DNA from: Balneolaceae bacterium
GTDB taxonomy: Bacteria; Bacteroidota; Rhodothermia; Balneolales; Balneolaceae
DNA length: 57,960 nt
Assembly: GCA_017643365.1 (NCBI GenBank)
Contig: JAEPNO010000018.1
Span: 1 to 57,960, forward strand
Direction: 5' to 3'
Under the pieces are notes generated by a model. That model had not been told where the DNA came from. It saw nothing but the letters and a program-made list of their open reading frames with translations, and made no database searches. Positions within the stretch are counted from its first letter, which is position 1. The number at the start of each line of letters is the position of its first letter. A program made the position numbers and the translations under genes. Of this stretch, positions 36,041-56,302 are shown one piece after another.

Positions 36041-36050
36041 GAACCAGTAT

Positions 36051-36701
36051 CTATTTTAAAGCGAGAAACCCATGAAGATCATCGGTGGGAAGGAGTCCGA
36101 GTTTCTTTCGAAGTCTGGAACGACTTATATACACGCTTGAAGGTTTAATGTGGAGTAATTCGGCAATTTCCTTGGCCGACATTCCAATTTTAATGTATGC
36201 ACACATTCTCAAATCGTTTGTTGTCAATTCCGGAAATTCTTGTTTTAAACTTGCGTAAAAACGCTTATTTAGTTCATCGATTTGAATATTGAAGGAGTCC
36301 TCTCCTTTTTCGGTGACTGAATTTATTTTAGCCAATATCTCTTTTGAATTTCGCGCCGTACTGTTTGGGTTCTTTTGAATTTGAACAATCAACATTTTTA
36401 TTGATTCCAGCACATCTGCTTTGGCGTCATTCTCCCGGGCAATTTTAGCTAACTCAATCGTCTTATTCTTTAACTCGGCTTTTAATTCTTCAAGTTCTCT
36501 TATAAGTATATTATCTGATTTCTTTTCAGAGTATTCAAAATCAACTTCGGAAATTAACTCATTGCGCTCTGACTGATTAGTTCTGATACCTGAAATGATG
36601 GACTTAATATTTCTGAATTGCCAGGCAACGAGTATGATAATAATCAGTGTAATTGCTGAAAACGCAATTAGTAATACCTCGGCTGTTAATAACGCCATCA
36701 A
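36051..36701 (-). CDS. Membrane-tethered LuxR-type HTH regulator
   Basis: A 216-residue protein with one N-terminal transmembrane segment (about 7-28), a charged coiled coil (about 45-100) and a C-terminal LuxR-type helix-turn-helix (about 155-216: LTTNDLRMCAYIKIG, SAKEIAELLHIKPSSVYIS, RSRLRKKLGL). Bacteroidota have larger regulators with this same C-terminal half preceded by periplasmic beta-propeller or TPR sensor domains; here the sensor part is missing. It would bind DNA while anchored in the inner membrane. Lying between the GH13 gene and the beta-glucan locus, it is a candidate regulator of either. A terminator separates it from the gene upstream. Confidence 0.8.
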   Translation of the reverse strand: MMALLTAEVLLIAFSAITLIIIILVAWQFRNIKSIISGIRTNQSERNELISEVDFEYSEKKSDNILIRELEELKAELKNKTIELAKIARENDAKADVLESIKMLIVQIQKNPNSTARNSKEILAKINSVTEKGEDSFNIQIDELNKRFYASLKQEFPELTTNDLRMCAYIKIGMSAKEIAELLHIKPSSVYISRSRLRKKLGLLPTDDLHGFLALK

Positions 36702-36751
36702 AGATTAAATTAGTTATCAGATTGTGTCAAATTTGAACTCAGGTAGATACT

Positions 36752-36782
36752 AAAAAAGCCGGACTGAAACAGACCGGCTTTT
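36752..36782 (-). terminator. Rho-independent terminator of the beta-glucan locus
   Basis: AAAAGCCGG (36754-36762) pairs with CCGGCTTTT (36774-36782); an inner CTG/CAG pair extends the stem. Read on the minus strand it ends in CCGGCTTTTTTA. It lies 23 bases after the stop of the T9SS-sorted protein, marking the likely end of the long leftward operon. Confidence 0.87.
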
Positions 36783-36804
36783 GAAATATTTTAAGCTAAC
36801 TTTA

Positions 36805-38181
36805 TTATTTAATCAGCATCATTTTCTTTACGCTTACAGAATTACCAGCTGTTAAGCGATAAACATATATCCCGGAAGAGAGATTAGAAGCATCGAATGC
36901 AACCGTATGAGATCCGGCATTTTGCACACCATTTACCAAGCCGGCTACTTTCTGCCCTTTCAAGTTGTAAACATCTAAACTTACCTTACCTGATACAGGA
37001 ATAGAATAGGAGATATTTGTAGTAGGATTAAATGGGTTTGGATAATTTTGCTCTAAGCCAAAACCATCGGGTACTTCTGAAAATTCGTTGCTTGTTGCAT
37101 CTGCATTGTAGAAGTACATATTATCGATAAATGCAGTTGTACCACCAGCAGGTGCTGCACTAAAGATAAATTGAGCCAAGTTGGTGGTGTTCGTTAATCC
37201 GGTAAAATCTGTTAATGATAGATCATAGCTAATCCATTCGCCCTGAGCAGGATTTTCCCAAACTAGTTCATGTTCTGTATCATCGCCTTGCCCGTCACCA
37301 CCTTCACCGCTGTATCCACCGGTAGGTCCGAAATCAACTATTTTAAATCGAAAAGTAGTAGCATTAGGCGTCCACAAATCAAAACGAACATGAGTCATGC
37401 TGCTTGCATCAATTTGACTTGAAACCGTTTCGATTCCCACAAAATTTAAGTTGGAGTACTTTTTTGTGGCATTACCGTCTACAGTTACATCAGCAAATCC
37501 TGAATTCGACCAACCTGTTTGCCAAGTATCCACAGCAACATCGGTGTATGCATCGCTAAACAATGAGATCACATTAGCTGCGTCTTCGGTTGGAGTTGGC
37601 GCTGCCGTTTCCGGGGCAAGCCCACCACTGCTTAAATCGCCAAAAGTTACGTTATCGAAGTAGATCACATTTTCCTGACTTCTCGCAGTAAAATCCGGGA
37701 AAATAGTAAGCTTAGCGAACACACCACCTTCACTTGCCGGTGGATTATTTTTATCCGAGAAATCGAAAGTCAGTTCTTCCCATTGATTAGTTACTGTATT
37801 AGCAACTTTGATTTCGCCTTCCGACCAACCACCTGCTGCTTCCAGTTTAATTCCTACGTCGGAGATAGTTGATTTCCAAACCATGATTTTAATGGTTCGA
37901 TTGTTGTCGTCTAAAGTAAACGTTCCGATGCCATCGGTGGTAACTCCGGCAAAGGTTGCGCCAACAACTCTGGCGGTAAACTTAGCCACTTTAGCTGATG
38001 TGTTTGGGTCGGTCGCATCCGGATTATCAATGACCTCTAGCGCCGGGTTATCAGTATTTTCAAATACTTCCCAGGTCCAGTCGGCTCCGTTGCCATCGGC
38101 TTCGAAATTAACAGGGCTATTTTGTGCTACCAGCGATGTTGAAAAAGCTAATAGCATTAATGTTAGTAAATATGGTTTCAT
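36805..38181 (-). CDS. Secreted two-module glycan-binding-like protein with T9SS sorting domain
   Basis: A 458-residue protein with a signal peptide (ending LVAQ), two beta-sandwich-like modules and a C-terminal type IX secretion sorting domain (about 375-458: [44 protein letters not shown]). Module X (about 22-183) has the pattern [17 protein letters not shown] ... WEELTFDF ... KLTIFPDF ... IYFDN. Module Y (about 200-360) starts [16 protein letters not shown] and includes NLNFVGIET. Both modules recur in the lipoprotein at 49703-52219. No catalytic residues are seen, so a role in binding glucan outside the cell is inferred. The frame opens upstream at 38256, but ATG at 38181 begins the signal peptide. 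It is the only T9SS-sorted protein in the window. Confidence 0.85.
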
Positions 38182-38266
38182 AATAGATTTTTTAAAATGT
38201 GTTTTAATTGTAGCGAAGTGTATAATGTTATTTCTCCTTGATTTATATTTGCGCACTTACCTAATA

Positions 38267-39211
38267 CTAATGCGTTGACTTTTGGCGGATATAATTAGGA
38301 TTAACTGCCAGTTTTGGGGTACGATCAGCCCGGTAAATTCCCCAGTGTTTTTCCGGTTCCCATGGGTCGGGCGATCCTTTCCAATTTTCATCAAAAGCTT
38401 CGAAGAAAAAGGTCAAAATGCCTTCTTTCTCAGTCCATTCCATCAGTTCAGAATAATATTTCTTCTGAAATCCTTCGTTCACATTGCTAACATCAATCCC
38501 TTGCCCATTTGATTTGGTCGCCCAACCGGCTTCGGTAATCACCACAGTTTTATCGGGATATTTTTCTGCAACGGAGTAGTAATTTGCTTTGGTGAATGCG
38601 AGTCCTTCTTTAATGCTTTTGTATTCCCAAACGGGATAAGTGTGTATAGAAATAAAATCCAGAAATTCTCCCAGTTCAGTAAGCTTGTCTAGCCATGGAA
38701 CATAGTTTTCGCAAAATGTAACCTGTTGATTGGTATTAGCTTTCACTTTTTGAGCATAACTTAGAACGTTTTTTTCCGGAACTAAATGGTCGGTCCACTC
38801 AACACAAGTTTCGTTGCCAATCGAAAGTGAAAAAATGATTTCAGGGTACTTATTCCCCATTTCAATCAGTCGGTCAATTTTGGCCTGATTAACCTTCTTA
38901 TTCTTGTCGAGCTGAACTTCATCATAAACTCCACCCCACGGACAATTAGGATTGCTGATTTCAGCGCCGATATCGGCACCCAGCATTATTTTGAAATCCA
39001 GGCCTTCTTTATCAATTACATCCAGCACTGTTTGTGCATGCAAACTGGAATCATACAATCGCAAATACTTCCAATTGTTTTTCAGAATCAGTAAGTCTTC
39101 TTTTATTTCATCGTAGGATGGAAACTCCCCGCCCGGATGTTGTCCATCTCTGAACCCAGAGTAACAAATGGCTTGTCCCGGTGTTAAACCGAGGTTTTCG
39201 AATGTACTCAA
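38267..39211 (-). CDS. GH17-like glycoside hydrolase, cytoplasmic
   Basis: A protein of about 314 residues of the GH17-like clan A group (exo-beta-1,3-glucanase-like). Acid/base and nucleophile are Glu134 in SIGNETCVEW and Glu227 in VITEAGWAT, numbered from the start used here. It has no signal peptide. Start: ATG codons at 39301 and 39277 would overlap the upstream gene by 60-86 bases, and the added residues merely read the upstream gene's conserved C-terminus in another frame. The TTG at 39211 lies four bases after the upstream stop and begins just before the conserved PGQAICYSGFRDG strand, so it is preferred, though an ATG start is not excluded. Closest in the window is the GH17-like lipoprotein at 44025-45299. 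Confidence 0.82.
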   Translation of the reverse strand: MSTFENLGLTPGQAICYSGFRDGQHPGGEFPSYDEIKEDLLILKNNWKYLRLYDSSLHAQTVLDVIDKEGLDFKIMLGADIGAEISNPNCPWGGVYDEVQLDKNKKVNQAKIDRLIEMGNKYPEIIFSLSIGNETCVEWTDHLVPEKNVLSYAQKVKANTNQQVTFCENYVPWLDKLTELGEFLDFISIHTYPVWEYKSIKEGLAFTKANYYSVAEKYPDKTVVITEAGWATKSNGQGIDVSNVNEGFQKKYYSELMEWTEKEGILTFFFEAFDENWKGSPDPWEPEKHWGIYRADRTPKLAVNPNYIRQKSTH

Positions 39212-39215
39212 ATGG

Positions 39216-40121
39216 TTAGTATTTAAGATTGTTATTGCTATCCCAAACGCCCCAATAGGCTCCAACTTCACCTTCATCACTTTTTTTCCAGGCTTCATCA
39301 AACGAAGAGAAGTACATGACTTCGATGTCTTCGTCTTGGGTCCACAAATTTGTATTAATAAAGTATTTCAAGGCATTTTCTTTCGATGGAAGTGCTCCAC
39401 CTAAACCTTCACCTTGGCTAGGCCAACCTGTTTCAGTTATGATCGTTCGCTTACCATTTCCGGCTGCTTTCGCTTGATAATACATTTGGCGCATATGATT
39501 TAGCGAATCCTCGAATGAGGTGCCTTCCCAATACGGATAGCAATTACAGAGAATCACATCGCAATTTTCTGCCAACTCGGGATGTACACTGAATTCGTAA
39601 TACGCATCCACATAGCCAACAGGCACATCGGGTATTTCCTTTTTCACTTGTTGGATGTATTCAACGAGCCTTTCCAGCGATAGATCGTTGCGATAAAGCA
39701 CTTCGTTACCAACTACGGCAATATCAACCATACCTTTTTTGGCTAATTCGATAAGACCGTCGATCTCGCCTTTATTCTTCTCTTCATCATCACCCAACCA
39801 TGCACCTACCATTGTTTTGAGGCCGAATTCTTTGGCTACTTCCGGAACCAATTCGTTGCCTTCGGTGGTAGAAAATGAGCGAATCCATTCACAATGACTT
39901 GCAAGAATTTGCATCCTACGATGGATCTGAGGCTTAGGAATTATATCACCCGGTTCTTGCCCTTCTTCGTACAAACTAAAACAAAAACCATGTATCCCTT
40001 CGGTTAAAATCTCATGGAATAAGTCATTCATTTCCTTTTCGCTTAACCCTTCTAAATAGTCTACTTTAGAAAGCAGCGAGGATTTTTCGAAGCTTAGAAA
40101 TTTTTCTTTTCTATACGACAT
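39216..40121 (-). CDS. GH17 beta-1,3-glucanase, cytoplasmic
   Basis: A 301-residue GH17 enzyme with the family signature TETGWPS (nucleophile Glu230) and acid/base Glu140 in VVGNEVLYR. It has no signal peptide and should act in the cytoplasm on imported laminari-oligosaccharides by hydrolysis or transglycosylation. It closely resembles the C-terminal domain of the preceding transporter fusion, sharing WIRSFSTT, VDAY, NCYP[YF]WEG, SFDE and GLW/GVW blocks and the same 90-residue spacing between the catalytic glutamates. It follows that gene by two bases, suggesting a tandem duplication of the GH17 domain. It is followed by a third GH17-type gene. Confidence 0.88.
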   Translation of the reverse strand: MSYRKEKFLSFEKSSLLSKVDYLEGLSEKEMNDLFHEILTEGIHGFCFSLYEEGQEPGDIIPKPQIHRRMQILASHCEWIRSFSTTEGNELVPEVAKEFGLKTMVGAWLGDDEEKNKGEIDGLIELAKKGMVDIAVVGNEVLYRNDLSLERLVEYIQQVKKEIPDVPVGYVDAYYEFSVHPELAENCDVILCNCYPYWEGTSFEDSLNHMRQMYYQAKAAGNGKRTIITETGWPSQGEGLGGALPSKENALKYFINTNLWTQDEDIEVMYFSSFDEAWKKSDEGEVGAYWGVWDSNNNLKY

Positions 40122-40123
40122 GT

Positions 40124-42502
40124 TTACTTAATTTTTAACTGTTCATTTTTATTCCAAAGTCCCCATCGGGCACCAACATCACCTTCGTGGCGTACTTTCC
40201 AAGATTCATCGAACGATGAGAAGTAATACATATCCACATCGTTAGCTTTACTCCAGGTTGCCATATTGATAAAGTACTTCATCATATTTTCAAGAGATGG
40301 GACTGCATCGCCTACTGTTTGCCCTTCAGATGGCCAGCCGGTTTCAGAAATAATTACTTTTTTACCTTTGCTGATGGAAGACACCAGAGCGTACATTTTT
40401 TCCACCACACTCATCGAATTTTCGATGGAATATCCTTCCCAAAATGGGTAGCAATTAATCATTACTACATCGCAATAATCCAGTAATTCGGGATGATCCA
40501 GGAAAACGAAATAGGCATCAACATAAGCCACCGGTGTATTCGGCAATTTCTCTTTCACTCGCTTGAGGTAATCGATCACTTGCTCTACCGAGAGTTCATC
40601 TCGCATGATGGTTTCGTTACCAACGGTAGCAATATCAACGGCGCCGGTTTTTGCCAACGAAATGAGTTGTTTCATTTCTCTTTCGTTGTTTTGGAGATTG
40701 TCGTCAATCCATGCACCCACTACCGATTTCTTATCGAATTTATGGGCAATCTCCGGAGTTAATTCGTTGCCACCGGTTGTTGAAAATGAACGAATCCATT
40801 GCACGTGTGGAGAAATAATCTTCACTCGTTGCTCAATTTGTGCTTTCGTTAATTGATCGCCAATATTCTGATCATCTTTATAAGGACTGAAGCAAATCCC
40901 TGAAAAACCTTCCGTCATTAATTCCTGGCATTTGGCTGATAATGTGGCAGCGTCGCTATCTAAATGAATAGGCGTATATGGGTTCTCTACCTCAATATTT
41001 GAGAACGAGTTCGCCTTACCAATCTGATAATAACTGGTTTGCTCTCCTTCTTTTTTCTTTACTTTTTTACCACCTTTTCGAGCTTCTAATTTGGCTCTAA
41101 TTTCATTCGCTCGCTCTTCGTCAATGTCGTAACTCCACATAACTAAAATGGCGATGAAAGTACCAAGAATCGGCAATCCGGAGAAGAAAGCGCGAAGACC
41201 GGTAATGCCCGGCCACACCTCGCCGATTTCGATCGGGCCGGGAAGCGCATCCGCACTAAATCCAACAATGCTGAGGATAATTCCGCTCAATCCACCGGCA
41301 ATAGCAAAACCGAATTTAACCATCCACCAGTAAATAGCACCAAAAACGCCTTCGCGACGGATTCCGTAATTCAGCTCATCCAAATCGATCACATCTGCCG
41401 TCATCGACATCATTAGGGTGAATAGGCTACCAATCCCAAAAGAGAAAAACGGAAGCGCAATAATAAACATGTAGGGTTTACCCGGAATCAGTAAAAACCA
41501 AAAGAGTAAATATCCTACTATCGATAGCGATTGTGATACAATGAAGGCTTTTTTCTTGCCCATCATTTTCGACATTTTAGCCACAATCGGTATTACAATA
41601 AAAGTGGTAACGATAGCGCCAAGACTACCAAATAAGGTTGGCCAGATTCCTGCCGCGCCTGCATCCCCACCGAATAAATGATATACAATAACAAAGAAAG
41701 TAAAGGCCGCAACGGTATTAAAAGCGTTGAAGATCAAGAATGTGGAAATACACAATTTTCGGAACGGAACCGACTTAAAAGCTTCTTTAAAGCTGTTAAT
41801 GATTTCCTTAAAACCATTTCCAATATTTGATGCCGTAAGAGGCATGTAATCGTCACGGTCTTCGGTAGATTTTTCTTTGATTATGATGGCCGGAATCATC
41901 GCACAAAACATAAAGATGATACCAACCCAGGTAGCGAGTGTTCGGGTAGCGACTTCAGCAGACTCAAACCACTCCGGGTCGTACATAATTACCCAGAACC
42001 ATGGAGCGATAACCCACGCCCACTGCCCAATCCATTGTGCAATGGCCATAATTTGAGTTCGTTCGTGGAAGTCGTCGCTCATTTCGTAGCCCATTGCTAC
42101 GTAAGGCACACTAAAGATGGTTAGCCCAAGAAAGAATGCCACCGAACAAGCCATGAAATAAGTGAAGTTGTAAATCACGCTATTGTCGGCATACAGCTGC
42201 CACATGATGATAAAACTGAGCCCCATAACAATGGCACCAAGGAAAACATACTGTCGGCGCCGGCCCCATTTTGAACGTGTGTTATCCGAAATAAAGCCCA
42301 TTATCGGATCGGTGAAAGCATCAAAAATACGAGGGAAAAAGAAAATCACGCCCCACATCCACCCGGGAAAGCCCAAATCCTGAACCAATACCACCATAAA
42401 GATGCTCAGTACAGCCGGGAACATCTGATTTGCGAGCATTCCAAATCCAAATGCTAGTTTATATGAATAAGGGACACTCCGTTTTGTAGCCTGTGTAGCC
42501 AT
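40124..42502 (-). CDS. GPH-family sugar:cation symporter fused to a GH17 glycoside hydrolase domain
   Basis: A 792-residue fusion. Residues 1-465 form a 12-segment transporter of the MelB-like glycoside-pentoside-hexuronide family, with the signature DAFTDPIMGFISDNTRSKWG (61-80). A short basic linker (about 465-490, RKGGKKVKKKEGEQ) leads to a GH17 domain (about 500-792) with acid/base Glu630 in TVGNETIMR and nucleophile Glu720 in SETGWPS. With both termini of this transporter class in the cytoplasm, and a lysine-rich linker consistent with that, the hydrolase should act on sugar as it enters the cell. The reading frame is continuous with no sign of a missing stop. The locus context points to laminari-oligosaccharides. 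Confidence 0.9.
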   Translation of the reverse strand: MATQATKRSVPYSYKLAFGFGMLANQMFPAVLSIFMVVLVQDLGFPGWMWGVIFFFPRIFDAFTDPIMGFISDNTRSKWGRRRQYVFLGAIVMGLSFIIMWQLYADNSVIYNFTYFMACSVAFFLGLTIFSVPYVAMGYEMSDDFHERTQIMAIAQWIGQWAWVIAPWFWVIMYDPEWFESAEVATRTLATWVGIIFMFCAMIPAIIIKEKSTEDRDDYMPLTASNIGNGFKEIINSFKEAFKSVPFRKLCISTFLIFNAFNTVAAFTFFVIVYHLFGGDAGAAGIWPTLFGSLGAIVTTFIVIPIVAKMSKMMGKKKAFIVSQSLSIVGYLLFWFLLIPGKPYMFIIALPFFSFGIGSLFTLMMSMTADVIDLDELNYGIRREGVFGAIYWWMVKFGFAIAGGLSGIILSIVGFSADALPGPIEIGEVWPGITGLRAFFSGLPILGTFIAILVMWSYDIDEERANEIRAKLEARKGGKKVKKKEGEQTSYYQIGKANSFSNIEVENPYTPIHLDSDAATLSAKCQELMTEGFSGICFSPYKDDQNIGDQLTKAQIEQRVKIISPHVQWIRSFSTTGGNELTPEIAHKFDKKSVVGAWIDDNLQNNEREMKQLISLAKTGAVDIATVGNETIMRDELSVEQVIDYLKRVKEKLPNTPVAYVDAYFVFLDHPELLDYCDVVMINCYPFWEGYSIENSMSVVEKMYALVSSISKGKKVIISETGWPSEGQTVGDAVPSLENMMKYFINMATWSKANDVDMYYFSSFDESWKVRHEGDVGARWGLWNKNEQLKIK

Positions 42503-42527
42503 CGTATTCCGTTCCTATAGTTAGTTA

Positions 42528-44012
42528 TTATTCCTGTGAATCCAATACAATTGTTTGTAATGCCTGTCCGTCGATGGTAACTGTTTTTTCCACATTCCCC
42601 AGTTTAATCGACATAGTTTTTGCATTTTCTGTTTGATTAAGCACTACCACAGCTATCGATCCATCCGGATTTTGAGCTGCGGTTACCAATAATTCGTCGT
42701 CGTTGTGTTGATGTCCAATTCGATACGCATCCGGACGAATAAAACGGCTGAAGTGTGCCATAGTGTAATACAATGGCGTGAAATAAACTTCATCGGCTTC
42801 AGGATCAACAATTACCGGTGCTAAACACCAGTTATTTGCCCAATTTGGTCCACCCTGTCGATCGAGTACCATATTCCAATCCACCCAGCCATCAACCCAA
42901 TTATTCAGGGTTCCGATAATATCACGAGCATAGCGATACACCGGTACATATTTTGGGTGTAAATATTTTTGCTCTTCCGGAGCCCAATCCCATCCCCAAT
43001 CGGTGGCTTCTTTGGCCCAATACCAGTCATCATCCTGCCAGCGCGGTACATCGGCATCGGCAGTGGCTTCAGATTGAATCAAATACTTGTCCGGAGCGGC
43101 ATTATGAGCGTATTGCAGAGCTTCTTCGAATACATCGTAAGTGCTGGCATACCAGTGAATGGCAGTCCCATCGAAATACTTGGCAGCTTCTTCATCGCCG
43201 TACATTACATCTACCCATTCTTCCAAGTGATCTCGGTTTTGATCGTAGCCTAGTAATACCACATCAGGATGAGTTTTCTCAAGTTGAGGACCTAGATGTT
43301 TGACCACAAACTCGTTCATTTCTTCGGGCGTGTAGTGCATACTTTCCCAGTTCTCGCCATTACCTAAAGGCTCATTTTCAACCGTAATTCCCCAAATGTC
43401 TATGCCTTGCTCGGCATAAGCATCCAGATATTTAGAGAAAAACAGCGCCCAGGTATCGTAGTATTCGGGCAATAACTTCCCTCCTTTCCAGGCTTTGTTG
43501 TCTTTCATCCAGATGGGGGCGGTCCAAGGCGATGAGATAATTTTAAACCCATCTTTCGAAATCGTCATCGCATCTTTTATAGTCGGGATGATGTCGTCCA
43601 TGTCTTCTTCAATCGAGAAGTTTTCGAGGGTAACATCGCCGGGGATAGGCGCATACGAATAGTTGCTCAATGAAAAATCGCTGGAGTTCATATGCGTTCG
43701 GGTTAGCGAATACCTTGCCCCACTTTCCCCAAAATAGGCTTCTAGAATTTTAGTGCGATTTTCATCACTCAATTGATTGAGCAAGTATGCCGTCGACTCA
43801 GTGAACGATCCACCAAAACCGGTAATTTTTTGAAATTTCTCATCCGGATTTAGCGTGATTTCAACAACATCCTCCGTTTCAACGAATTCAGTAACTTCGG
43901 TTAACTGATTTCCATTTGCTGATGTCTCGTACACTTCCATTTTAAGGTCTTGATTTGAATTACATCCGATCATCAGCAAGGCAAGAAAAATAGTTAGTAA
44001 TTGTGTTTTCAT
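42528..44012 (-). CDS. GH30 family glycoside hydrolase lipoprotein
   Basis: A 494-residue lipoprotein (LLMIGCNSN). The chain shows a GH30 barrel plus beta domain: GFGGSFTES near 65, ISSPWTAPIWMK at 159-170, acid/base Glu214 in TVENEP and nucleophile Glu315 in LIQSEA, then a C-terminal beta domain to residue 494. Members related to this one act as beta-glucosidases or beta-1,6-glucanases. In a laminarin-type locus the likely job is removing beta-1,6-linked side chains outside the cytoplasm. It lies between the GH17-like lipoprotein and the transporter fusion with 12- and 25-base gaps. Confidence 0.9.
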   Translation of the reverse strand: MKTQLLTIFLALLMIGCNSNQDLKMEVYETSANGNQLTEVTEFVETEDVVEITLNPDEKFQKITGFGGSFTESTAYLLNQLSDENRTKILEAYFGESGARYSLTRTHMNSSDFSLSNYSYAPIPGDVTLENFSIEEDMDDIIPTIKDAMTISKDGFKIISSPWTAPIWMKDNKAWKGGKLLPEYYDTWALFFSKYLDAYAEQGIDIWGITVENEPLGNGENWESMHYTPEEMNEFVVKHLGPQLEKTHPDVVLLGYDQNRDHLEEWVDVMYGDEEAAKYFDGTAIHWYASTYDVFEEALQYAHNAAPDKYLIQSEATADADVPRWQDDDWYWAKEATDWGWDWAPEEQKYLHPKYVPVYRYARDIIGTLNNWVDGWVDWNMVLDRQGGPNWANNWCLAPVIVDPEADEVYFTPLYYTMAHFSRFIRPDAYRIGHQHNDDELLVTAAQNPDGSIAVVVLNQTENAKTMSIKLGNVEKTVTIDGQALQTIVLDSQE

Positions 44013-44024
44013 GGTATCAGCTTG

Positions 44025-45299
44025 TTACTTGTCGACCATTACTTCTTCCAGTGATGGTGGCACTTTAACCGTTTCCATCATGGCATCATAACCGCCGTTA
44101 AAGGTTTTGGTAATCGGCTTGCCATCGCGCGTTAATCCTTCAAAAATTCCGGCGTCCACCAAATCCCAAATCGCATACTTGGCTTCCGCATCAAGATTGA
44201 TCAACCCGAAGTGGTTTTCTGAACCTTCCGGATTTTGCGCATCTTTCCACTTCTCGTCAAAGGCTTCGAAATAAAACACAGAGATATTCTCCTCGTTCGA
44301 CCACTCACGAATGGCATTGTAGTACACCCCGGATTTATACTCATCGGTTGAGCGGGCGCCATCAATTCCATAATGCTCGTTCGAGATGGTTGCCCAGCCC
44401 GTTTCGCCAATATGAACCGGTTTATCGATGCCTAAACTCTGCATGTATTCCACAACATTTTCGTACTGATTTTGAGCATAGTCCACGGCTCGTTCCATCG
44501 CAAGATCGATCTTTTCTTTATCAGAAAGACCCATTTCGTCATCTCTTACTCCCCAAAATTCGGGATGATAATGTGTGTCGTGCATCGGGTAAGTATGCAC
44601 CGATAAGAAGTCAACGGCTTCGATCAGTTTGTTTAAATCTTCTTTGTGATAGCTGCTATCGCCTCCACCCCAGCTTGCAAAATTATCCGAGCTGGTGATC
44701 CACAAATCGGCCGGTAATTCACCCTCGGCTTTTAAATCCTGCAAGTAATTAACCCATTTCAAAATGATGGTTGGCTCCACGAAATATTCCCAAGCCCAGT
44801 GCACCATCGCTTCGTTACCCACGGCAATTATTTTGATGATATCGGGATATTGCTTTGCGAGATCAACCGCAATGGCGATTTCGGTTTCATTCCGCGGACT
44901 TTCTTCATCCCGAATGCGATCCGGCACTGTAGTCCATGCATTTTTGGCATCAATCCAGGCACCCAACATCACATACATTTCAAAGTTTTCATCTTCTTTT
45001 TTCAACTCATCAATTGCCTTTAACACATTTGATGCATGATCCAAATGTACATTGTAGGTTCTGATTAATTTTATGCCCATTGCCTGTAGAATGAGCATAT
45101 CTTCTTTTAGCTGCGCTACCGTTGGCTGGATTTCACGAGTGATTTCGCGGTATCCACCATAGGAAATTGCTTGATATTCGACATTCCCGAGAATCTCTTG
45201 TGCAGTTTTATCTCTATTCATTTTTTTATCCGATCTGGTACATGTTATACCCATTAGCGATGCTAAGATGAAAATCAATAAATGATGTACGTTTCGCAT
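44025..45299 (-). CDS. GH17-like glycoside hydrolase lipoprotein
   Basis: A 424-residue protein whose N-terminus (LIFILASLMGITCTRS, Cys20) is a lipoprotein signal. The catalytic domain shows the GH17-like pattern: ISYGGYR strand, acid/base Glu163 in AVGNEAMVHW, a SVHTYPMHD strand and nucleophile Glu299 in IGETGWAT, then YFEAFDEKWK. It likely acts on beta-1,3-glucan or its oligosaccharides outside the cytoplasm. It is the only GH17-type protein here with a signal. It is followed by GH30 (12 bases) and preceded by the phosphorylase gene (12 bases). Confidence 0.85.
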   Translation of the reverse strand: MRNVHHLLIFILASLMGITCTRSDKKMNRDKTAQEILGNVEYQAISYGGYREITREIQPTVAQLKEDMLILQAMGIKLIRTYNVHLDHASNVLKAIDELKKEDENFEMYVMLGAWIDAKNAWTTVPDRIRDEESPRNETEIAIAVDLAKQYPDIIKIIAVGNEAMVHWAWEYFVEPTIILKWVNYLQDLKAEGELPADLWITSSDNFASWGGGDSSYHKEDLNKLIEAVDFLSVHTYPMHDTHYHPEFWGVRDDEMGLSDKEKIDLAMERAVDYAQNQYENVVEYMQSLGIDKPVHIGETGWATISNEHYGIDGARSTDEYKSGVYYNAIREWSNEENISVFYFEAFDEKWKDAQNPEGSENHFGLINLDAEAKYAIWDLVDAGIFEGLTRDGKPITKTFNGGYDAMMETVKVPPSLEEVMVDK

Positions 45300-45311
45300 G
45301 CTAACCTCTAT

Positions 45312-48300
45312 TTATGAATTAATAAGTCTGTGTTCTTTTATGGATACTTTTAATATCGTCACCTCACCGGTTCGACCGAAAATCATCGCGCTTGTTTTCT
45401 TATCGAGCGATAATCCATTAAATGATTGGGAAGCGCCGTTTTGCAAATATGCTTCAATTCCATCCTGTTCTTCAATTTTGTAGATCACAGGAACCTGGCA
45501 ATAACTGAATGCCAATGCGTTTTTAGGAACCACAACTTCGTTCTCATTTCCATTTAGATTCGAAATCTGATAAGTGCCGGGCTCGGTTAAAAACTCGGAT
45601 TTACGTAATATAACGGGGTTAAACGACAGTACGCCATCCTCTACTTCGATTCCAAGTTCGCCGATTCTGGCCAGAATATCTTCCTTCACTTGTCCGGTCA
45701 TTCCGGGCTGTTGTGCTCCACGGTGATAAGGTGTATGAGAGTATGGATCGGTTGGAAAAGCGCCATACACTTCGGGAGATTTATGGATTCCGATGCCTTC
45801 ACCAATTTCATAGAAATGTTCGGCAAGTTTGGCTTTTACTTCTTCATCAGAGCCTGCTTTTTCTGCCTGATCGCATACTTCGAAAGCTGCCAGATACAAC
45901 TTCGAAACCATGTGCCAGTAAATAGATCCCAATCCCTCGTAGCCATAAAACGTACCCGAGCGTCCGGTAAATGCTTTGTGATTGAATACATCTTCGAAAG
46001 TATCCAAAATGGCTTCCCTTTCTTTAGCCACGAGATCAGCAAATTCGCTGTCTTCAAGTGAAGTCAATGCTTTATCAAGATCGCCGGCATTTTTGAAATT
46101 ACCATTGAAATGATAACCACCGTTCACATCTTTGCTGATAATTCTGGTATCTCCCGTTTCCACCATCTTACTTAATAATTTGGATGATGACACCGCTGAT
46201 TCCGGCACATTATTGCGTTGTAAAAAGCCCGGCAATTCTTTGTTTGGATACAGAATGTAACTTGCCTGATCCTCGCGATACAAGGTGCTTTGGCGCAATC
46301 CTTCAAGCACTTCCAGCGATTCTTCAGCAGTCAAATATCCTGAACTCAATACCGCAACTTGTCCTTCCAGCATTTCATCAAGATAAGAAATGGAGATTCC
46401 ATCGCCTTCAATACTCATGATATTATAGGCATGGTACAAATTGTCATTTCGCTTGTTTGAGCGAATTGAATGCTCTAAGTACTCGTTTGTAACCGCAACA
46501 AATTCTCGTACAGCTGAAATATCTAAATTTGATAACTCACCGGAAAAACCGTTGTTGTAAATGCTATCTCGATAATCACTAGCTGCTTTACCAAGGGCAT
46601 CGGTGATTGTCTTGCGCTGTTCGTCGCTAACTGCTCCACTGATCACCACTTTGTGAGTATCCAGTGTTTTTTTGATGGAATTGAAGCAGTCTAGTAATTC
46701 AACCGAAACTTCAACGCTATCGTCGGTTACGCTAGCCAGTACATTTTGCATGTGTGCTAAAAATCTGCGCAAGTAATACAAGGTAACCATCGAAACCCCA
46801 TTCCCCACCAAGGCGTTGTTGGCGTCGTTCCATTCCGGACGTTGAGTGTTCATCCAGATGCCGCCTTCGGGAATGAGATTTGATACTTTGGCTAAGGTTG
46901 TAGCCAATAACTTTTCGAGCAGACTTACCCGATGAATTTCATTCTTTTTGTTGATGAGAAGAGCTCCATCTGCCCCGATTTCTGCTACTCGTTCTCGAAT
47001 AGCTTCGTCTCCCTCTGCATCAAAATCGATGGTGTCTTTTGGGTTTTTGGCAATGTCGTCGTAGCTCTTAATTCGATACGGAACGTTGGCATATACAAAT
47101 ACATCTTCATCCATTAAAGCCGGGAAAGCTTCCGGTTGATGCTTCTCGTACAATTCCAAAAACTTGAGTAGATAAATGATTTGATGATCACCCCAATACC
47201 CGATGTACGACCATGGATCGTCGGGCTCGATGGTTTCCCAATCGAAACCGCCTTTTGTAACGCGATAAGGGTTGTAGCCATCAAAAGTTGTGGCATTGAG
47301 GAATTTGAAAATCATACCCTCTAAAAACTTCGGGTACGAATGAGCTAATGCTTCCCAGTTTTGGAAAATGTCGCGCCAGTTACCTTCGTAATCAAGGATC
47401 TTAGTTCCATCTTCATTATGGGTATTGATCGAAAAACGGTTCCAAGGACGAGATGGATCGCCATGTCGGCGACTGAATTTTAGTGGCAGATATTCTTTAA
47501 CTAAACGGATCAGATCGGCATCGTCGCTATTGTCGATGGTTGATAGCAACACCGATTGGTCGAAGACTTCCGGCAGGTCGCTAAGCAGTTTTTGATTTCT
47601 TTGAAAGGTCGGCTTACTGGCGTTATCCAAATATTGGGCAAAATCATCTTTTTCAATCTGATAATGATGATCGAAAATACCGCCACGCATGATGTTAAAT
47701 AACACATTTGAATAATGGCGGGCATCTTTAAGCTCGTCGGCACTTAATTGCATGCCATCAGACTGTGCAACCAGATTCTTCAGTTTTTTGGTGCCTACTT
47801 GTACATTTTGATCCACTTCATGCTGAAGCTCATCCGGATCGGATTTCAAACGCTCGTTAAGGGCAATTGTACCTGCGTGGTTTTGATTCACATTGGCTAC
47901 CAAATTCCAAGACTCATAGGTACCGGCGGCCAAGGTTAATTCAGTACAAACAAAGTACGCGCCTTTTTCACCTTTAATATCATCTTCGGCAGTTACTGAT
48001 GCACCATTTCTAAAAGCATCTAATTGAAGCGATGAGACCAAGTAGGTTGGATTTTTTAAACCGGTAGACCAAACAACATTGGCTTTTAATGCTTCGCTCG
48101 GTTCTGCTTTATCAACAGGAATTGCACTCAGTGCGTAGATGCCTAAGCCCGTTTCCGTAACCATTTCCGATCTTTTATATGCATCAAGCAAGTTGCTTGA
48201 TCTCACCTGAAGATCACTATTTACACTTGCCGGCAGAATATTCTGAATACCATCCAGAATAGTGATGGTAACATCCGAATCTGCAATATTTTGAACCGTT

Positions 48301-48779
48301 GAAGTTCGTACGAAACCGAAATCGTTGCTGGATTTCCACTCGTATTTGAACGATAAATTCAGATCATGATTTATCTCTTCGAATAAAACTTTATTGCCCC
48401 ACCGACTTTTATACAAATTTCGCGAAGTATTGTATCGGTGTTCATCGTGTTTAGAAAACGGCTCCCAAACCTGCTTCTTGCCGTCGACAACCACTTGAAT
48501 GATGGTTTTTGAACCGGTGATATCAGCAAACTCTGTAATTTTATCATCTGTGTAATACGGAAACAACGAAAACTCTGAGTTCTTTCTTCCTGCGGTAAGT
48601 CCGCCATTGCTTGAAATGAACATCCAGTGATTCGAATCACTAACTATGCTCATGAAAAAAGGTCGGATTTTATCCGAATCGGTAATCTTGAAATAGGGCT
48701 CGTTATTAATGGTAACAGCTTCTAATTTGTTACTTGCTGTTTGAGTACCCGTTGAATTTTTGTTTGATGATAGGCTCAT
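45312..48779 (-). CDS. Beta-1,3-glucan phosphorylase, GH149/GH161 type
   Basis: A 1155-residue cytoplasmic enzyme without signal peptide. It is related to GH94 phosphorylases and best fits the long beta-1,3-oligoglucan phosphorylases of GH149 (or sister family GH161), which convert beta-1,3-glucan plus phosphate to alpha-glucose-1-phosphate. An N-terminal beta-sandwich (about 20-310) is followed by an (alpha/alpha)6-type domain with GNWRDIFQNWEAL (466-478), GYWGDHQ (527-533) and RPEWNDANNALVGNG (647-661), the last placing the likely catalytic Asp, and by a C-terminal jelly roll. Family choice between GH149 and GH161 is uncertain by eye; length and GH17/GH30 neighbours favour GH149. It conserves phosphate-bond energy from imported glucan. 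Confidence 0.78.
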   Translation of the reverse strand: MSLSSNKNSTGTQTASNKLEAVTINNEPYFKITDSDKIRPFFMSIVSDSNHWMFISSNGGLTAGRKNSEFSLFPYYTDDKITEFADITGSKTIIQVVVDGKKQVWEPFSKHDEHRYNTSRNLYKSRWGNKVLFEEINHDLNLSFKYEWKSSNDFGFVRTSTVQNIADSDVTITILDGIQNILPASVNSDLQVRSSNLLDAYKRSEMVTETGLGIYALSAIPVDKAEPSEALKANVVWSTGLKNPTYLVSSLQLDAFRNGASVTAEDDIKGEKGAYFVCTELTLAAGTYESWNLVANVNQNHAGTIALNERLKSDPDELQHEVDQNVQVGTKKLKNLVAQSDGMQLSADELKDARHYSNVLFNIMRGGIFDHHYQIEKDDFAQYLDNASKPTFQRNQKLLSDLPEVFDQSVLLSTIDNSDDADLIRLVKEYLPLKFSRRHGDPSRPWNRFSINTHNEDGTKILDYEGNWRDIFQNWEALAHSYPKFLEGMIFKFLNATTFDGYNPYRVTKGGFDWETIEPDDPWSYIGYWGDHQIIYLLKFLELYEKHQPEAFPALMDEDVFVYANVPYRIKSYDDIAKNPKDTIDFDAEGDEAIRERVAEIGADGALLINKKNEIHRVSLLEKLLATTLAKVSNLIPEGGIWMNTQRPEWNDANNALVGNGVSMVTLYYLRRFLAHMQNVLASVTDDSVEVSVELLDCFNSIKKTLDTHKVVISGAVSDEQRKTITDALGKAASDYRDSIYNNGFSGELSNLDISAVREFVAVTNEYLEHSIRSNKRNDNLYHAYNIMSIEGDGISISYLDEMLEGQVAVLSSGYLTAEESLEVLEGLRQSTLYREDQASYILYPNKELPGFLQRNNVPESAVSSSKLLSKMVETGDTRIISKDVNGGYHFNGNFKNAGDLDKALTSLEDSEFADLVAKEREAILDTFEDVFNHKAFTGRSGTFYGYEGLGSIYWHMVSKLYLAAFEVCDQAEKAGSDEEVKAKLAEHFYEIGEGIGIHKSPEVYGAFPTDPYSHTPYHRGAQQPGMTGQVKEDILARIGELGIEVEDGVLSFNPVILRKSEFLTEPGTYQISNLNGNENEVVVPKNALAFSYCQVPVIYKIEEQDGIEAYLQNGASQSFNGLSLDKKTSAMIFGRTGEVTILKVSIKEHRLINS

Positions 48780-48843
48780 CGCTGTTAAACTTTTTGTTGT
48801 GAGTGAAGTTATTGAGTTTGCTTTATTGTACCGCTAGTGCGAG

Positions 48844-49680
48844 TTATCCATCGTAGCTATACACTCGAACGTAATCTACATACATTGCCTGTGGAAATGG
48901 TGTGCTGCTATCCGGTGAGCCTACAAACGACCCGCCAACAGCAACGTTAATAATGATGTAGAACACATTGTCGTTAAAAACCCATTCGCCGTTCACATCA
49001 TCAGGAGTGATTTCGTTATACATTTCATCATCAACGAAATAGCGAATAAAATCCGGACCCCATTCAATAGCAAACACATGAAACTCTGAATCGAATCGGC
49101 CTGACTTTAAATTGTAGGCAGCTCCTTCTGCTTGCCCGGCCGAGTATCCCGGACCATGCACACTTCCGTGAATGATCGTTGGCTCTTGCCCCCGATATTC
49201 CATGATATCAATCTCACCGATTTGTGGCCAAACAACGGTTCCGTTGGAATCGTCGCCGAGTAACCAAAATGCCGGCCAGATTCCTTGCCCAAATGGAAGC
49301 ATAATTCGAGCCTCGTATCGGCCGTAGGTTTGCTCAAAAATTTCTCTGGTTAAAATTTTTGCAGAGGTGTAATTCGAGTTTTCAAAACGCTCTTTACGGG
49401 CTGTTATCTCTAACATGCCGTTTTCAACTTTGATATTATCAGAACGATCGGTGTAATACTGAAGCTCGTTATTACCCCAGCCCGGTGTTCCGAAAATCTC
49501 TACTCCGGTTCCAATATCGAACGACCATTTTGAAGCATCAACGGATCCTTCAGTATCAAATTCGTCTGACCAAACCAGCGTTGCGAATTCGTTTTCCGGT
49601 TCGTTGGTGCTCTCCTTGCATCCCTGTAACACAAGGATGAAGGAAAGTATCAGTGAAAAAACAGTTAGATGTTTGTTCAT
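48844..49680 (-). CDS. GH16 endo-beta-1,3-glucanase (laminarinase) lipoprotein
   Basis: A 278-residue lipoprotein (LVLQGCKES, Cys21). The GH16 catalytic signature GEIDIMEYRG is at 155-164, with nucleophile Glu156, Asp158 and acid/base Glu161. Other family blocks are WSDEFD (37-42), GWGNNELQYYT (67-77), RYEARIMLPFGQGIWPAFWLLG (121-142) and the C-terminal MYVDYVRVY. It should cut laminarin-type beta-1,3-glucan at the cell surface or in the periplasm. The frame opens upstream at 49761, but those 27 residues overlap the preceding gene; ATG at 49680 begins the lipoprotein signal. It is preceded by the binding lipoprotein gene (22 bases) and followed by the phosphorylase gene (64 bases). Confidence 0.93.
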   Translation of the reverse strand: MNKHLTVFSLILSFILVLQGCKESTNEPENEFATLVWSDEFDTEGSVDASKWSFDIGTGVEIFGTPGWGNNELQYYTDRSDNIKVENGMLEITARKERFENSNYTSAKILTREIFEQTYGRYEARIMLPFGQGIWPAFWLLGDDSNGTVVWPQIGEIDIMEYRGQEPTIIHGSVHGPGYSAGQAEGAAYNLKSGRFDSEFHVFAIEWGPDFIRYFVDDEMYNEITPDDVNGEWVFNDNVFYIIINVAVGGSFVGSPDSSTPFPQAMYVDYVRVYSYDG

Positions 49681-49702
49681 AAAACGTAAAGTGAGTTTTG
49701 CC

Positions 49703-52219
49703 TTAGTTTGATTGGATGATGTTATCGATATAGAAGGTACCGGTGGAATTTCCAGGGCCATCCATAAAGATGGTCAAACGAGGGAAGGAAGCAGTTGAAG
49801 TGAATGTAAAGGTTAACTTTTCCCATCCTGAACCGGTATGATTTTGGGGATTTTCATCAAAATCGCCCTGATCAACCTCAATTTTCATTAACACTGGAAT
49901 GGCAGTTGTTGAATACACATCCATAGTTATAGTTTGGCCATTCGCAAAATTGATATTGTTCTCTAAATCAAAATAGATGCCTTCCCATTGCTGGCCAACA
50001 TTGGTGATCGAACCCACTTTAGATGCTGTGTTGTTTGATCCCGAAACATCAGGATTGTCAACCACTTCGTAGGCTGTTCCGTTAAAGGTTGTTGCAGCAT
50101 AAATCACATTCGAATCGTCGAAGGTAATTGGTAATTCAGGGGCAGTTTTTTCGCCACCGCCAGAGCCACCGGTTCCATCGGTATAGTAGTAGATGTTGTC
50201 TACAAAAATATCTGAGATGGTGTCGTCTGAGACAAAGAAAATCAAACCAATTTTATCCTGAGCGGTAAGATTGAAATCGGATAATGGAACGTCGAAACTT
50301 ACCCATTCTCCTTCGCGCAGAGCTCCCGAATTAAAGGTCACAGACCCGGATGATTCGTTGCCTCCAACATCGTTGATAAGCTGGAATCGAATGAAATCGC
50401 CTGCTGTGATGGCTTCGTTTACATAGATATCAACATGAATGTGCGACATTTCCGAAACATCCACCGGTGAGTTGGATTGATTTGGATCAACACCTGTTCC
50501 GATCCCTACAAAATTGAGATCGGTGTAATGAATGATTCCATCGCCATCAATCAATACATCAGCACCCTGAGGTCCACCGTCGAAACCGGTTCCGCCCAGA
50601 GTAGTTTGTCCATCACCATTAAAGAAGCCGTTGTAGTAATCTACAGGTACATTCGTGTAAGCATCGCTGAAGATAGAAATCACGCTATCGGCATCTTCTG
50701 TTGGAACCGGTGCAGTTTCAATATCAACAGGTTCACCACCATTGCCGCCATTACCACCGTTACCGCCTGATCCATCAGTGCCGTCGTCGTAGTAGAAAAT
50801 ATTATCAACATAGATGTTTGAGATAGTGGCATCACTCACAAAGAAGATAAGTCCAAGTGCCGAGCGATCGGCCAATCCGAAATCAGCAAGTGGAATGTCC
50901 AGACTCAGCCAGTCGTTTTCTAGTAATTGATCGTCGGTGATTCTAATCGAACCGGAGGTTTCATTCCCACCTACATCATTGAGTAATTGGATGGTTATGT
51001 AGTCGCCCGGATCTATGCTTTCCTGAACGTTGATATCAACATGCATGTGAGTCATCTCAGTTGCATCAACAGGATTTACATTTAAGAATGTACCAATACC
51101 TACAAAGTTCAGATCGGTATAGTTGATGATTCCATCACCATTTACGACGATATCGGCACCTTGCGGACCGCCATCAAAACCGGTTCCACCTTGAGTTGTT
51201 TGACCATCACCGTTAAAGAATCCGTTGTAATAATCAACCGGAACGTTGGTGTATGCATCACTAAATATCGAAATAACGCTGTCGGCCGGAACCGTTGGCA
51301 CAGGCGCTGACTGGAAAGTTCCATTCGAAATCACCGTTAAAGAACCGTCGGCTTCGGTGCCATCAATCATACCGGTGATTGTTGCAGTTCCTTCTCCAAC
51401 CACGGTTACAACACCGTTTTCATCAACCGTTGCAACTGCCGGGTTTGAAGAAACAAAATCGAAGTAACCGGACGCAACTGTAAGCATTACATCCTGGCTG
51501 ACTGTAGTTTCATCAGCTAAAGTGATGATCGTATTTAAGGTTTGTTCGAAACCCGTAATTGAATAGGAAAGGTTTACAAAACTGGTAATGGTTAGGTCTT
51601 GCCCGTTGTTAATAGCTGGACGTGGTTGAGCTATATTACCAAGTTTTTCGAATTTCAAATCATCCACCCAAAAACTGTAGCCGTCTCCATTTTCAGGTTC
51701 TTCAGCAAACCAGAACATTCCGGTCATTGCTGTTAATTTATTGGAAGCCGGAAATGGTATCACATATTTTTTCCAGTATGTAGATAATTTAAGACCATCC
51801 AAACGAACTTCGAAATCGTTATCGCCTTCAACACCTTGCCCAAAACCTACGCTGTTTATAACTCCTGCCTTCGAACCTTTAGCATAAAAGGTTAATGCGT
51901 CGTATTCTGTGAGATCTCGTCCACCGTTTAAATCTACAAATGCAGCGCCCGCATAAGATCCTGATGGATCTCCTGCATTAGGCACATCGATACGCATGGA
52001 TGCATCCGAATTATTATAAGTTACATCGGTATCAACCTGAAATGCGTCGAGTTTTGCGAAGCCATCATCGTAGGGAAAATATTCCAGTCCGGCACTAAAG
52101 CCATCGATGAAAACATCCGGATTATTGGTTAAGGTCGGCTCGCTAAGTCCGTCTACCGATCGCTGGCAACTTGCTGCAAAAAAGATGACAAGTAAACCTG
52201 CAAATAAAGAACGAGTCAT
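49703..52219 (-). CDS. Multi-module glycan-binding lipoprotein
   Basis: An 838-residue lipoprotein (signal MTRSLFAGLLVIFFAASCQ). Modules in order: a CBM11-like domain (about 30-190, ending YSFWVDDLKFEKL), a bacterial Ig-like BIG_2 domain (about 200-300, FVSSNPAVATVDENGVVTV), module Y twice (about 312-490 and 517-700, each starting SVISIFSDAYTNVPVDYYNG) separated by a GGNGGNGGNGG linker, and module X (about 710-838, ending TFYIDNIIQSN). Modules X and Y also make up the T9SS-sorted protein at 36805-38181. There are no catalytic residues. It probably holds glucan at the cell surface, like SusE/SusF or surface glycan-binding proteins. The frame also opens at 52243; ATG 52219 starts the signal peptide. 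Confidence 0.85.
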   Translation of the reverse strand: MTRSLFAGLLVIFFAASCQRSVDGLSEPTLTNNPDVFIDGFSAGLEYFPYDDGFAKLDAFQVDTDVTYNNSDASMRIDVPNAGDPSGSYAGAAFVDLNGGRDLTEYDALTFYAKGSKAGVINSVGFGQGVEGDNDFEVRLDGLKLSTYWKKYVIPFPASNKLTAMTGMFWFAEEPENGDGYSFWVDDLKFEKLGNIAQPRPAINNGQDLTITSFVNLSYSITGFEQTLNTIITLADETTVSQDVMLTVASGYFDFVSSNPAVATVDENGVVTVVGEGTATITGMIDGTEADGSLTVISNGTFQSAPVPTVPADSVISIFSDAYTNVPVDYYNGFFNGDGQTTQGGTGFDGGPQGADIVVNGDGIINYTDLNFVGIGTFLNVNPVDATEMTHMHVDINVQESIDPGDYITIQLLNDVGGNETSGSIRITDDQLLENDWLSLDIPLADFGLADRSALGLIFFVSDATISNIYVDNIFYYDDGTDGSGGNGGNGGNGGEPVDIETAPVPTEDADSVISIFSDAYTNVPVDYYNGFFNGDGQTTLGGTGFDGGPQGADVLIDGDGIIHYTDLNFVGIGTGVDPNQSNSPVDVSEMSHIHVDIYVNEAITAGDFIRFQLINDVGGNESSGSVTFNSGALREGEWVSFDVPLSDFNLTAQDKIGLIFFVSDDTISDIFVDNIYYYTDGTGGSGGGEKTAPELPITFDDSNVIYAATTFNGTAYEVVDNPDVSGSNNTASKVGSITNVGQQWEGIYFDLENNINFANGQTITMDVYSTTAIPVLMKIEVDQGDFDENPQNHTGSGWEKLTFTFTSTASFPRLTIFMDGPGNSTGTFYIDNIIQSN

Positions 52220-52256
52220 AATAGTTAAATTTAAATCTTTCATTTACTTATCTCTT

Positions 52257-55629: not shown

Positions 55630-55789
55630 TTTGTATAGATAAAATACCGGTGTGATATGAAAATCATTCACTAAAAATCAGAAATCAGTGATTTTTTCAG
55701 GTCAAATATATGGGATTTTTTCTCACCCTGATTCGAGGTATGTCTCAAAAAAGGGGACAATATTTTCGTCTGGAAAATAAGATTGATAC

Positions 55790-55818
55790 AAAAAAAGGAC
55801 TCACCTTTCGATGATCCC
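55790..55818 (-). terminator. Probable rho-independent terminator of the mini-flagellin gene
   Basis: On the minus strand GGGATCA and TGAGTCC form an imperfect stem around TCGAAAGG, followed by seven T residues. It lies about 30 bases after the flagellin stop codon. Confidence 0.45.
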
Positions 55819-55848
55819 TTTAAGAAAACAAACCAAATATTCTAACTC

Positions 55849-56241
55849 TTAAACCATCTTAAGCGCACTACCAATATCGATATTTGCTTGAGCAAACATG
55901 GCGGTGGTACTGTATTGCAGTATTTTATTTCGAATGGCTTCCGATTGAGCTTTCGCCATGTCGGTGTCGATGATTCGACTATTAGCCGACGATAACGCGT
56001 TGATCTTGGCCGCATTCGCTTCCTGATCTCCATCAGATGTTGAGAGGCTCGATTCCGCTTCTAAAGCAGCAATCTGTCCTTTTGTTTTTATCGAGCTTAC
56101 GTACGTAGCTGCAGCGTCTTCGGCTTTATTTACTTTCTCGCCGGAAGATAGTTGTTCACCGGTATCAACAATGTTCTTGTTGATGCGGTGTAGCGTAAGC
56201 ATGTTGTTCCGGATACCCGGATAATCACCTATCGTAGACAT
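55849..56241 (-). CDS. Mini-flagellin (flagellin N- and C-terminal domains only)
   Basis: A 130-residue protein that joins the two conserved ends of flagellin with almost nothing between. Residues 10-60 match the N-terminal D0/D1 region (NNMLTLHRINKNIVDTGEQL, SSGEKVNKAEDAAATYVSS). Residues 85-130 match the C-terminal D1/D0 region (SSANSRIIDTDMAKAQSEA, NKILQYSTTAMFAQANIDIG). Ordinary flagellins are at least about 250 residues, so the outer half of D1 and all surface domains are missing. There is no signal peptide, as expected for flagellar export. A near-consensus sigma-28 promoter sits 35-61 bases upstream and a probable terminator follows, so it looks like an intact, regulated gene rather than debris. 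It could be a thin-filament or junction subunit, or a minor flagellin. No other flagellar gene is in the window. Confidence 0.85.
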   Translation of the reverse strand: MSTIGDYPGIRNNMLTLHRINKNIVDTGEQLSSGEKVNKAEDAAATYVSSIKTKGQIAALEAESSLSTSDGDQEANAAKINALSSANSRIIDTDMAKAQSEAIRNKILQYSTTAMFAQANIDIGSALKMV

Positions 56242-56275
56242 AATTCTAAATTTTTTACTCTTTGACCTATTCAGG

Positions 56276-56302
56276 TTATCGGCGATCTGATTCCATACTT
56301 AA
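56276..56302 (-). promoter_or_regulatory. Sigma-28 (FliA) type promoter
   Basis: On the minus strand TTAAGTAT, 11 bases, GCCGATAA. The flagellar sigma-28 consensus is TAAAGTTT-N11-GCCGATAA: the -10 matches 8 of 8, the -35 matches 6 of 8 and the spacer is exact. The transcript would start near 56268, about 27 bases before the mini-flagellin ATG. Confidence 0.8.

Follow-up and report, generated by a model that had tools for sequence, protein, structure and literature searches.

A putative minimal flagellin under selection in a genus of Balneolaceae

The mini-flagellin gene and its surroundings

The stretch of DNA analysed here (the window, 57,960 nucleotides) corresponds to one contig (C9) of a Balneolaceae genome that is 3.77 Mb in size and 99.8% complete. 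Close to one of its ends lies a small gene for a flagellin-related protein, termed mini-flagellin in the following. The gene is set apart from the flagellar cluster, which resides on another contig (C50), and adjoins a beta-glucan locus (GH16, GH17, GH30); in this respect the gene content of the window agrees with the first-pass annotation, which had placed the gene away from other flagellar genes and beside a glucan locus. The relevant features are as follows, with parts of the protein assigned by alignment with the genome's own full-length flagellins:

55849-56241, minus strand: mini-flagellin gene, 130 aa, ATG start, intact open reading frame
Residues ~1-62 of the protein: ND0 arm, spoke and base of ND1
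Residues ~63-82 of the protein: hairpin tip
Residues ~83-130 of the protein: base of CD1, spoke and CD0 arm
56242-56275, minus strand: 5' leader of 34 bp, its first half (GAATAGGTCAAAGAGTA) identical in the orthologue (upstream alignment)
56276-56302, minus strand: sigma-28-type promoter TTAAG-N16-CGATAA (TTAAGTAT-N11-GCCGATAA), core and spacing common to the genome's own flagellins, flhB and chemotaxis genes
~55788-55820, minus strand: probable intrinsic terminator, composed of a AAGGGAUCAUCGAAAGGUGAGUCCUU hairpin with a trailing T-run (RNA fold)
C50:64669-65334: FliA, above cut-off
C50:77807-78697: FlgL / HAP3
C50:90666-90836: FliS
C50:98136-103972: five full-length flagellins in tandem, ~317 aa each

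The glucan utilisation locus extends from 34124 to 52243 of the window and comprises GH16, several GH17-like, GH30 and GH13 genes together with an MFS transporter and a LuxR-type regulator; the open reading frame at 40124-42502 encodes an MFS sugar transporter fused to a GH17-like domain. Between 11685 and 31427, three paralogues of ~1100 aa, in which 'DINNDG/DIDGDGD' (VCBS/FG-GAP-like) motifs recur as judged by eye, accompany TonB-receptor-like and SusD-like genes. The C-terminal halves of two of them (11685-14945 and 18261-21512) appear very alike by eye and may have undergone gene conversion. Past a YdjM-like gene, a DDE transposase fragment (PF13751; 57476-57958, minus strand) runs off the contig end, such that mobile DNA is present at the border of the neighbourhood.

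A search of the genome for fliA and for hook, rod, export and full-length flagellin genes, as recommended in the first-pass annotation, located all of them on C50. Besides the genes listed above, this contig encodes FlhA, FlhB, FliP, FliO, FliQ/FliR-type proteins, FliM/N, FlgA, FlgH, FlgI, rod and hook proteins, FlgK, FliD and FlgN. With this gene set, which includes FliA and the export apparatus, the cell is equipped to build flagella. A GIY-YIG/NUMOD homing-endonuclease-like protein and a HigB toxin gene are encoded in the interval that separates flgL from the flagellin array (G000:C50:80278-84051, G000 denoting the source genome).

Protein anatomy, promoter and expected expression

The assignment of the mini-flagellin to the flagellin family is based on Pfam, NCBIfam and PDB sequence matches. 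In Pfam, Flagellin_C (PF00700) was detected above its cut-off (25.4 versus 23 bits); Flagellin_N (PF00669) scored just below (22.5 versus 26.6 bits) and was matched at positions 9-81 of 139 only, because the mini-flagellin ends early in this domain. Compared with the full-length flagellins of the same genome, the mini-flagellin retains an N-terminal arm that reaches GQIAALE and a C-terminal arm that begins near ESSLS or AKINALSSANSRIIDTDMAKAQ, and some 180 internal residues including nearly all of D1 are absent. Translated into the domain terms of FliC and Hag, the retained parts comprise D0 in full, together with the conserved spoke and a short base of D1. Residues invariant between mini- and full-length flagellins include N13, G34, N38, A40-E41-D42, A44-A45, S88 and I90, and furthermore D92, D94, A96-K97, Q99, I107, Q109, Q118-A119-N120 and L127.

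As counted from the alignment, the ND0 arm up to the SSG motif consists of 31 residues as compared to 30 in Hag, and D0 can be taken as complete on account of this near-canonical size. The same arm is six residues shorter than in the full-length flagellins of this genome and of Balneolaceae, which might pose an obstacle to co-assembly with the full-length paralogues. A complete D1 domain, on which the outer tube of known filaments depends, is missing according to the alignment with the own flagellins. The AlphaFold2 prediction was poor (pLDDT 42, from an alignment of two sequences only), and its all-helix outline (8-33, 39-65, 70-90, 94-129) was the sole feature that matched expectation. Alignment shows the predicted protein to be a hairpin of two D0 arms, a spoke and a D1 stub. 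The first-pass annotation had described an intact frame that keeps both flagellin ends and lacks the outer D1, all of which holds; as a minor amendment, the spoke and approximately the first 20 D1 residues are retained in each arm.

The promoter reads TTAAGTAT-GGAATCAGATC (11)-GCCGATAA, and the exact sigma-28 -10 element and exact 11-base spacer that had been noticed just upstream of the gene were both recovered. Its -35 element matches the consensus TAAAGTTT at six of eight positions, this consensus being the enteric one. When the core of the genome's own flagellin promoters (TTAAG-N16-CGATAA) is used instead, all 11 of 11 positions agree. This is the sole 11/11 site on either strand of the window, and such a score was attained by 0.01% of shuffles of the 150-bp region upstream of the mini-flagellin gene. 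The motif or close variants with the same spacing precede the own flagellins as well as those of a congener, G032. Genome searches returned 13 exact sites in the source genome and 11 in the congener, with the reversed pattern as control yielding 5 and 4 sites, respectively; the non-chance sites precede flagellins, flhB, a CheY-like operon and a CheX-like gene, and recur in the congener. Two perfect sites that are also conserved in the congener (G000:C3:69970 and G000:C48:15336) lie before an isocitrate-dehydrogenase-like and an NqrA-like gene, both named by eye. These may be non-flagellar sigma-28 targets, or the motif may be common to another sigma factor; given these two conserved sites before metabolic genes, the motif by itself is no proof. 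At motif level, then, the mini-flagellin gene possesses a sigma-28-type promoter in a FliA-bearing genome. The promoter is preserved in the congener as TTAAG-N16-CGATAC (10/11) at identical distance from the start, and the DNA further upstream has diverged.

The terminator reported in the first-pass annotation is present as a hairpin with a T-run that folds as expected, and the orthologue carries a stretch ending CCTTTTTTTTT at the corresponding place downstream. The hairpin is, however, statistically not strong (z ~ -1) and not among the results of a consensus terminator scan. No Rfam elements were found near the gene. A Shine-Dalgarno-like AAAGGTGA, typical before full-length flagellins, is missing from the leader of the mini-flagellin gene and from the other window genes sampled in a start-site comparison. 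The codon adaptation index relative to the own flagellins is 0.58 for the mini-flagellin versus 0.73-0.77 for the own flagellins themselves, and its codon use is that of ordinary window genes. Because of this ordinary codon use and the missing Shine-Dalgarno-like motif, the protein is probably scarce and a minor component.

Orthologue, selection and distribution

One orthologue was identified, in the congener G032 (JAEPQH010000023.1, MAG HXMU1428-5). It has the same length of 130 aa, is 84% identical and lies in the same neighbourhood, with the flanking genes on either side being 85% and 58% identical. A same-length relative of this kind had been named in the first-pass annotation as a means of checking the gene. 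The differences between the two genes are distributed over the three codon positions as 15/9/63, corresponding to dN 0.108 and dS 1.446 (Nei-Gojobori) and a ratio of ~0.075, which is rough since dS is near saturation. The frame is unbroken in both genomes, and the substitutions indicate strong purifying and not relaxed selection. Amino-acid changes cluster in the tip (residues 63-82; Fisher p = 1e-4), where dN amounts to 0.489 as opposed to 0.032 for residues 1-62 and 0.087 for residues 83-130. Most pairs of full-length flagellins from the two genomes have dN values of 0.023-0.034, and one pair reaches 0.076. The D0 arms of the mini-flagellin thus appear to be constrained nearly like working flagellins, with drift where D1 was cut away. 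This selection pattern is the strongest evidence for a protein that folds into, and functions as, a D0 hairpin, and it speaks against a remnant.

An internal deletion in a flagellin gene is the simplest origin of such a sequence, and frameshifted flagellin copies do occur in relatives (G037:C6 is an example), so that a decaying remnant or a fresh internal deletion had to be considered. With equal length and zero stops in both genes, dN/dS at 0.075 for a dS of ~1.4, a preserved promoter and a clade on its own long branch, we consider this explanation highly improbable. The two mini-flagellins form that branch in a tree that fixes no attachment point. As judged from sequence, the gene is very probably functional and a member of the flagellar regulon, and the functional, flagellum-regulated minimal subunit proposed in the first-pass annotation is well supported by the presence of FliA and export genes, the same-length orthologue and purifying selection.

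No other mini-flagellin was found in 92 genomes of the family, 129 of the order and 394 of the phylum (overlapping sets). The gene is therefore restricted, within this sample, to two genomes of one genus, with dozens of flagellated relatives lacking it, and flagella in general cannot depend on it. Several candidates were rejected. Short flagellin hits in G022 (C11 and C13), G060 (C59), G091 (C7 and C42), G088 (C26), G469 (C84) and G027 (C3) stop at contig edges. G037:C6:446244, a flagellin copy within the large array of that relative, is frameshifted, and a hit in Bacillus phage EZ-2018a proved to be a full-length, Hag-like gene of 301 aa. A plasmid search gave zero matches. A third congener, G033, encodes FlhA and no flagellin, mini-flagellin or neighbouring gene; being 82% complete and split into 590 contigs, this genome is too incomplete to count.

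Possible roles and comparison with known systems

We propose that the mini-flagellin gene would be transcribed by FliA alongside the late flagellar genes, as suggested at the level of the promoter motif. Its product would probably bind FliS via the C-terminal D0 arm, the part of flagellin to which FliS is known to bind (PMC7248283, PMC5466977), and would probably be exported by the flagellar type III apparatus. It could then enter the D0 inner tube as a special subunit of low abundance, for example beside the junction with the hook or at the point where the filament ceases to grow, and would provide D0-D0 contacts without an outer D1 shell. Taken as a whole, this proposal of a FliA-dependent, exported, low-abundance subunit in or at an end of the D0 inner tube is an even call, and for incorporation into the axial structure we see the chances as equally balanced. 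Constraint on both arms, and on the N-terminal one most, fits export plus packing in the D0 lattice better than a role confined to FliS.

The main rival is a secreted, non-structural flagellin, which would be exported via the flagellum, remain unassembled and act outside the cell. FlaC of Campylobacter jejuni provides the precedent: it is a short variant beside the structural flagellins that possesses both termini, is bound by FliS on which it depends, and is secreted and not assembled (PMC5466977). The conservation of both termini of the mini-flagellin, bearing the export and chaperone signals, is in line with such a fate, and the missing outer D1 would deprive the subunits of most of their usual contacts, making stable assembly doubtful. 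However, FlaC retains D0 and D1, lacks only D2-D3 and is much larger (~26 kDa versus ~14 kDa), secretion alone needs no conserved spoke or lower D1, and there is no evidence for a recipient of a secreted protein. We therefore regard secretion as the less likely outcome, albeit the first to be weighed against an axial subunit.

Alternatively, the mini-flagellin could remain in the cytoplasm and, by mimicking flagellin, engage FliS or a different protein that binds flagellin, thereby tuning flagellin export or late-gene expression. FliS is encoded, a probably low expression would fit, and a small FliS partner that docks at the flagellin site is known in HP1076 from Helicobacter pylori, a protein with a flagellin-like helical fold (PMC7248283). 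HP1076 is, however, not described as a truncated flagellin and is regulated by RpoN. Moreover, FliS occupies the C-terminal D0 arm, yet it is the N-terminal arm that is more constrained (dN 0.032 versus 0.087). A search of the source genome for FliW, the best-known sensor of flagellin, was negative, and FliW-based sensing was dropped for this reason. A regulatory role is consequently unlikely.

Type III needle subunits are short helical hairpins, and the inner tube of filaments is built from the very parts that the mini-flagellin retains. Mini-flagellin subunits could accordingly form a homopolymer, a thin D0-only tube of similar design. Genes for a dedicated cap, needle or extra export components do not adjoin the mini-flagellin gene and its expression is probably low, which renders this option distinctly unlikely.

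The genus may, in more general terms, possess a dedicated D0-only axial protein that either polymerises into a thin inner-core tube or marks a single defined site, such as the junction, the tip or the end point of growth, in a filament made of several flagellins, a notion to which we give somewhat less than an even chance. D1 is commonly held to be indispensable for a flagellin. If true, a D0-only flagellin under selection would reveal the capacity of the D0 layer alone and bear on how the flagellar filament and the type III needle, each a hollow tube of helical hairpins, are akin in design. The mini-flagellin, on sequence evidence the smallest natural flagellin under selection found in this analysis, would also lend itself directly, as a natural construct, to tests of D0-only assembly, of the control of filament length or of secretion.

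Our literature search yielded no description of a D0-only flagellin under selection, a weak negative with subscription papers outside its scope. YvzB of Bacillus subtilis, which is homologous to the flagellin Hag but smaller and dispensable for filaments (PMC8929632, PMC4793158), resembles the mini-flagellin as a second, smaller flagellin homologue beside a full-length gene. This comparison is by description only, and the cited passages describe neither a role nor a conserved sigma-28 promoter for YvzB. Both YvzB and FlaC rank among the nearest known counterparts and are at most putative equivalents of the mini-flagellin; YvzB is at most a putative orthologue. FlgL/HAP3 is a junction protein of the flagellin superfamily with D0 arms, but the mini-flagellin is far closer to flagellin (49 bits for flagellin Hag versus 17.5 bits for NCBIfam FlgL); with TIGR02550 requiring 127.2 bits and a separate flgL in the genome, an identity as FlgL was rejected. 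The genome's own full-length flagellins share the terminal arms (~44% identity over shared columns) and the promoter architecture with the mini-flagellin, whereas the latter differs by the absence of the ~180 internal residues and of the Shine-Dalgarno-like motif, by its ordinary codon use and by its location on another contig.
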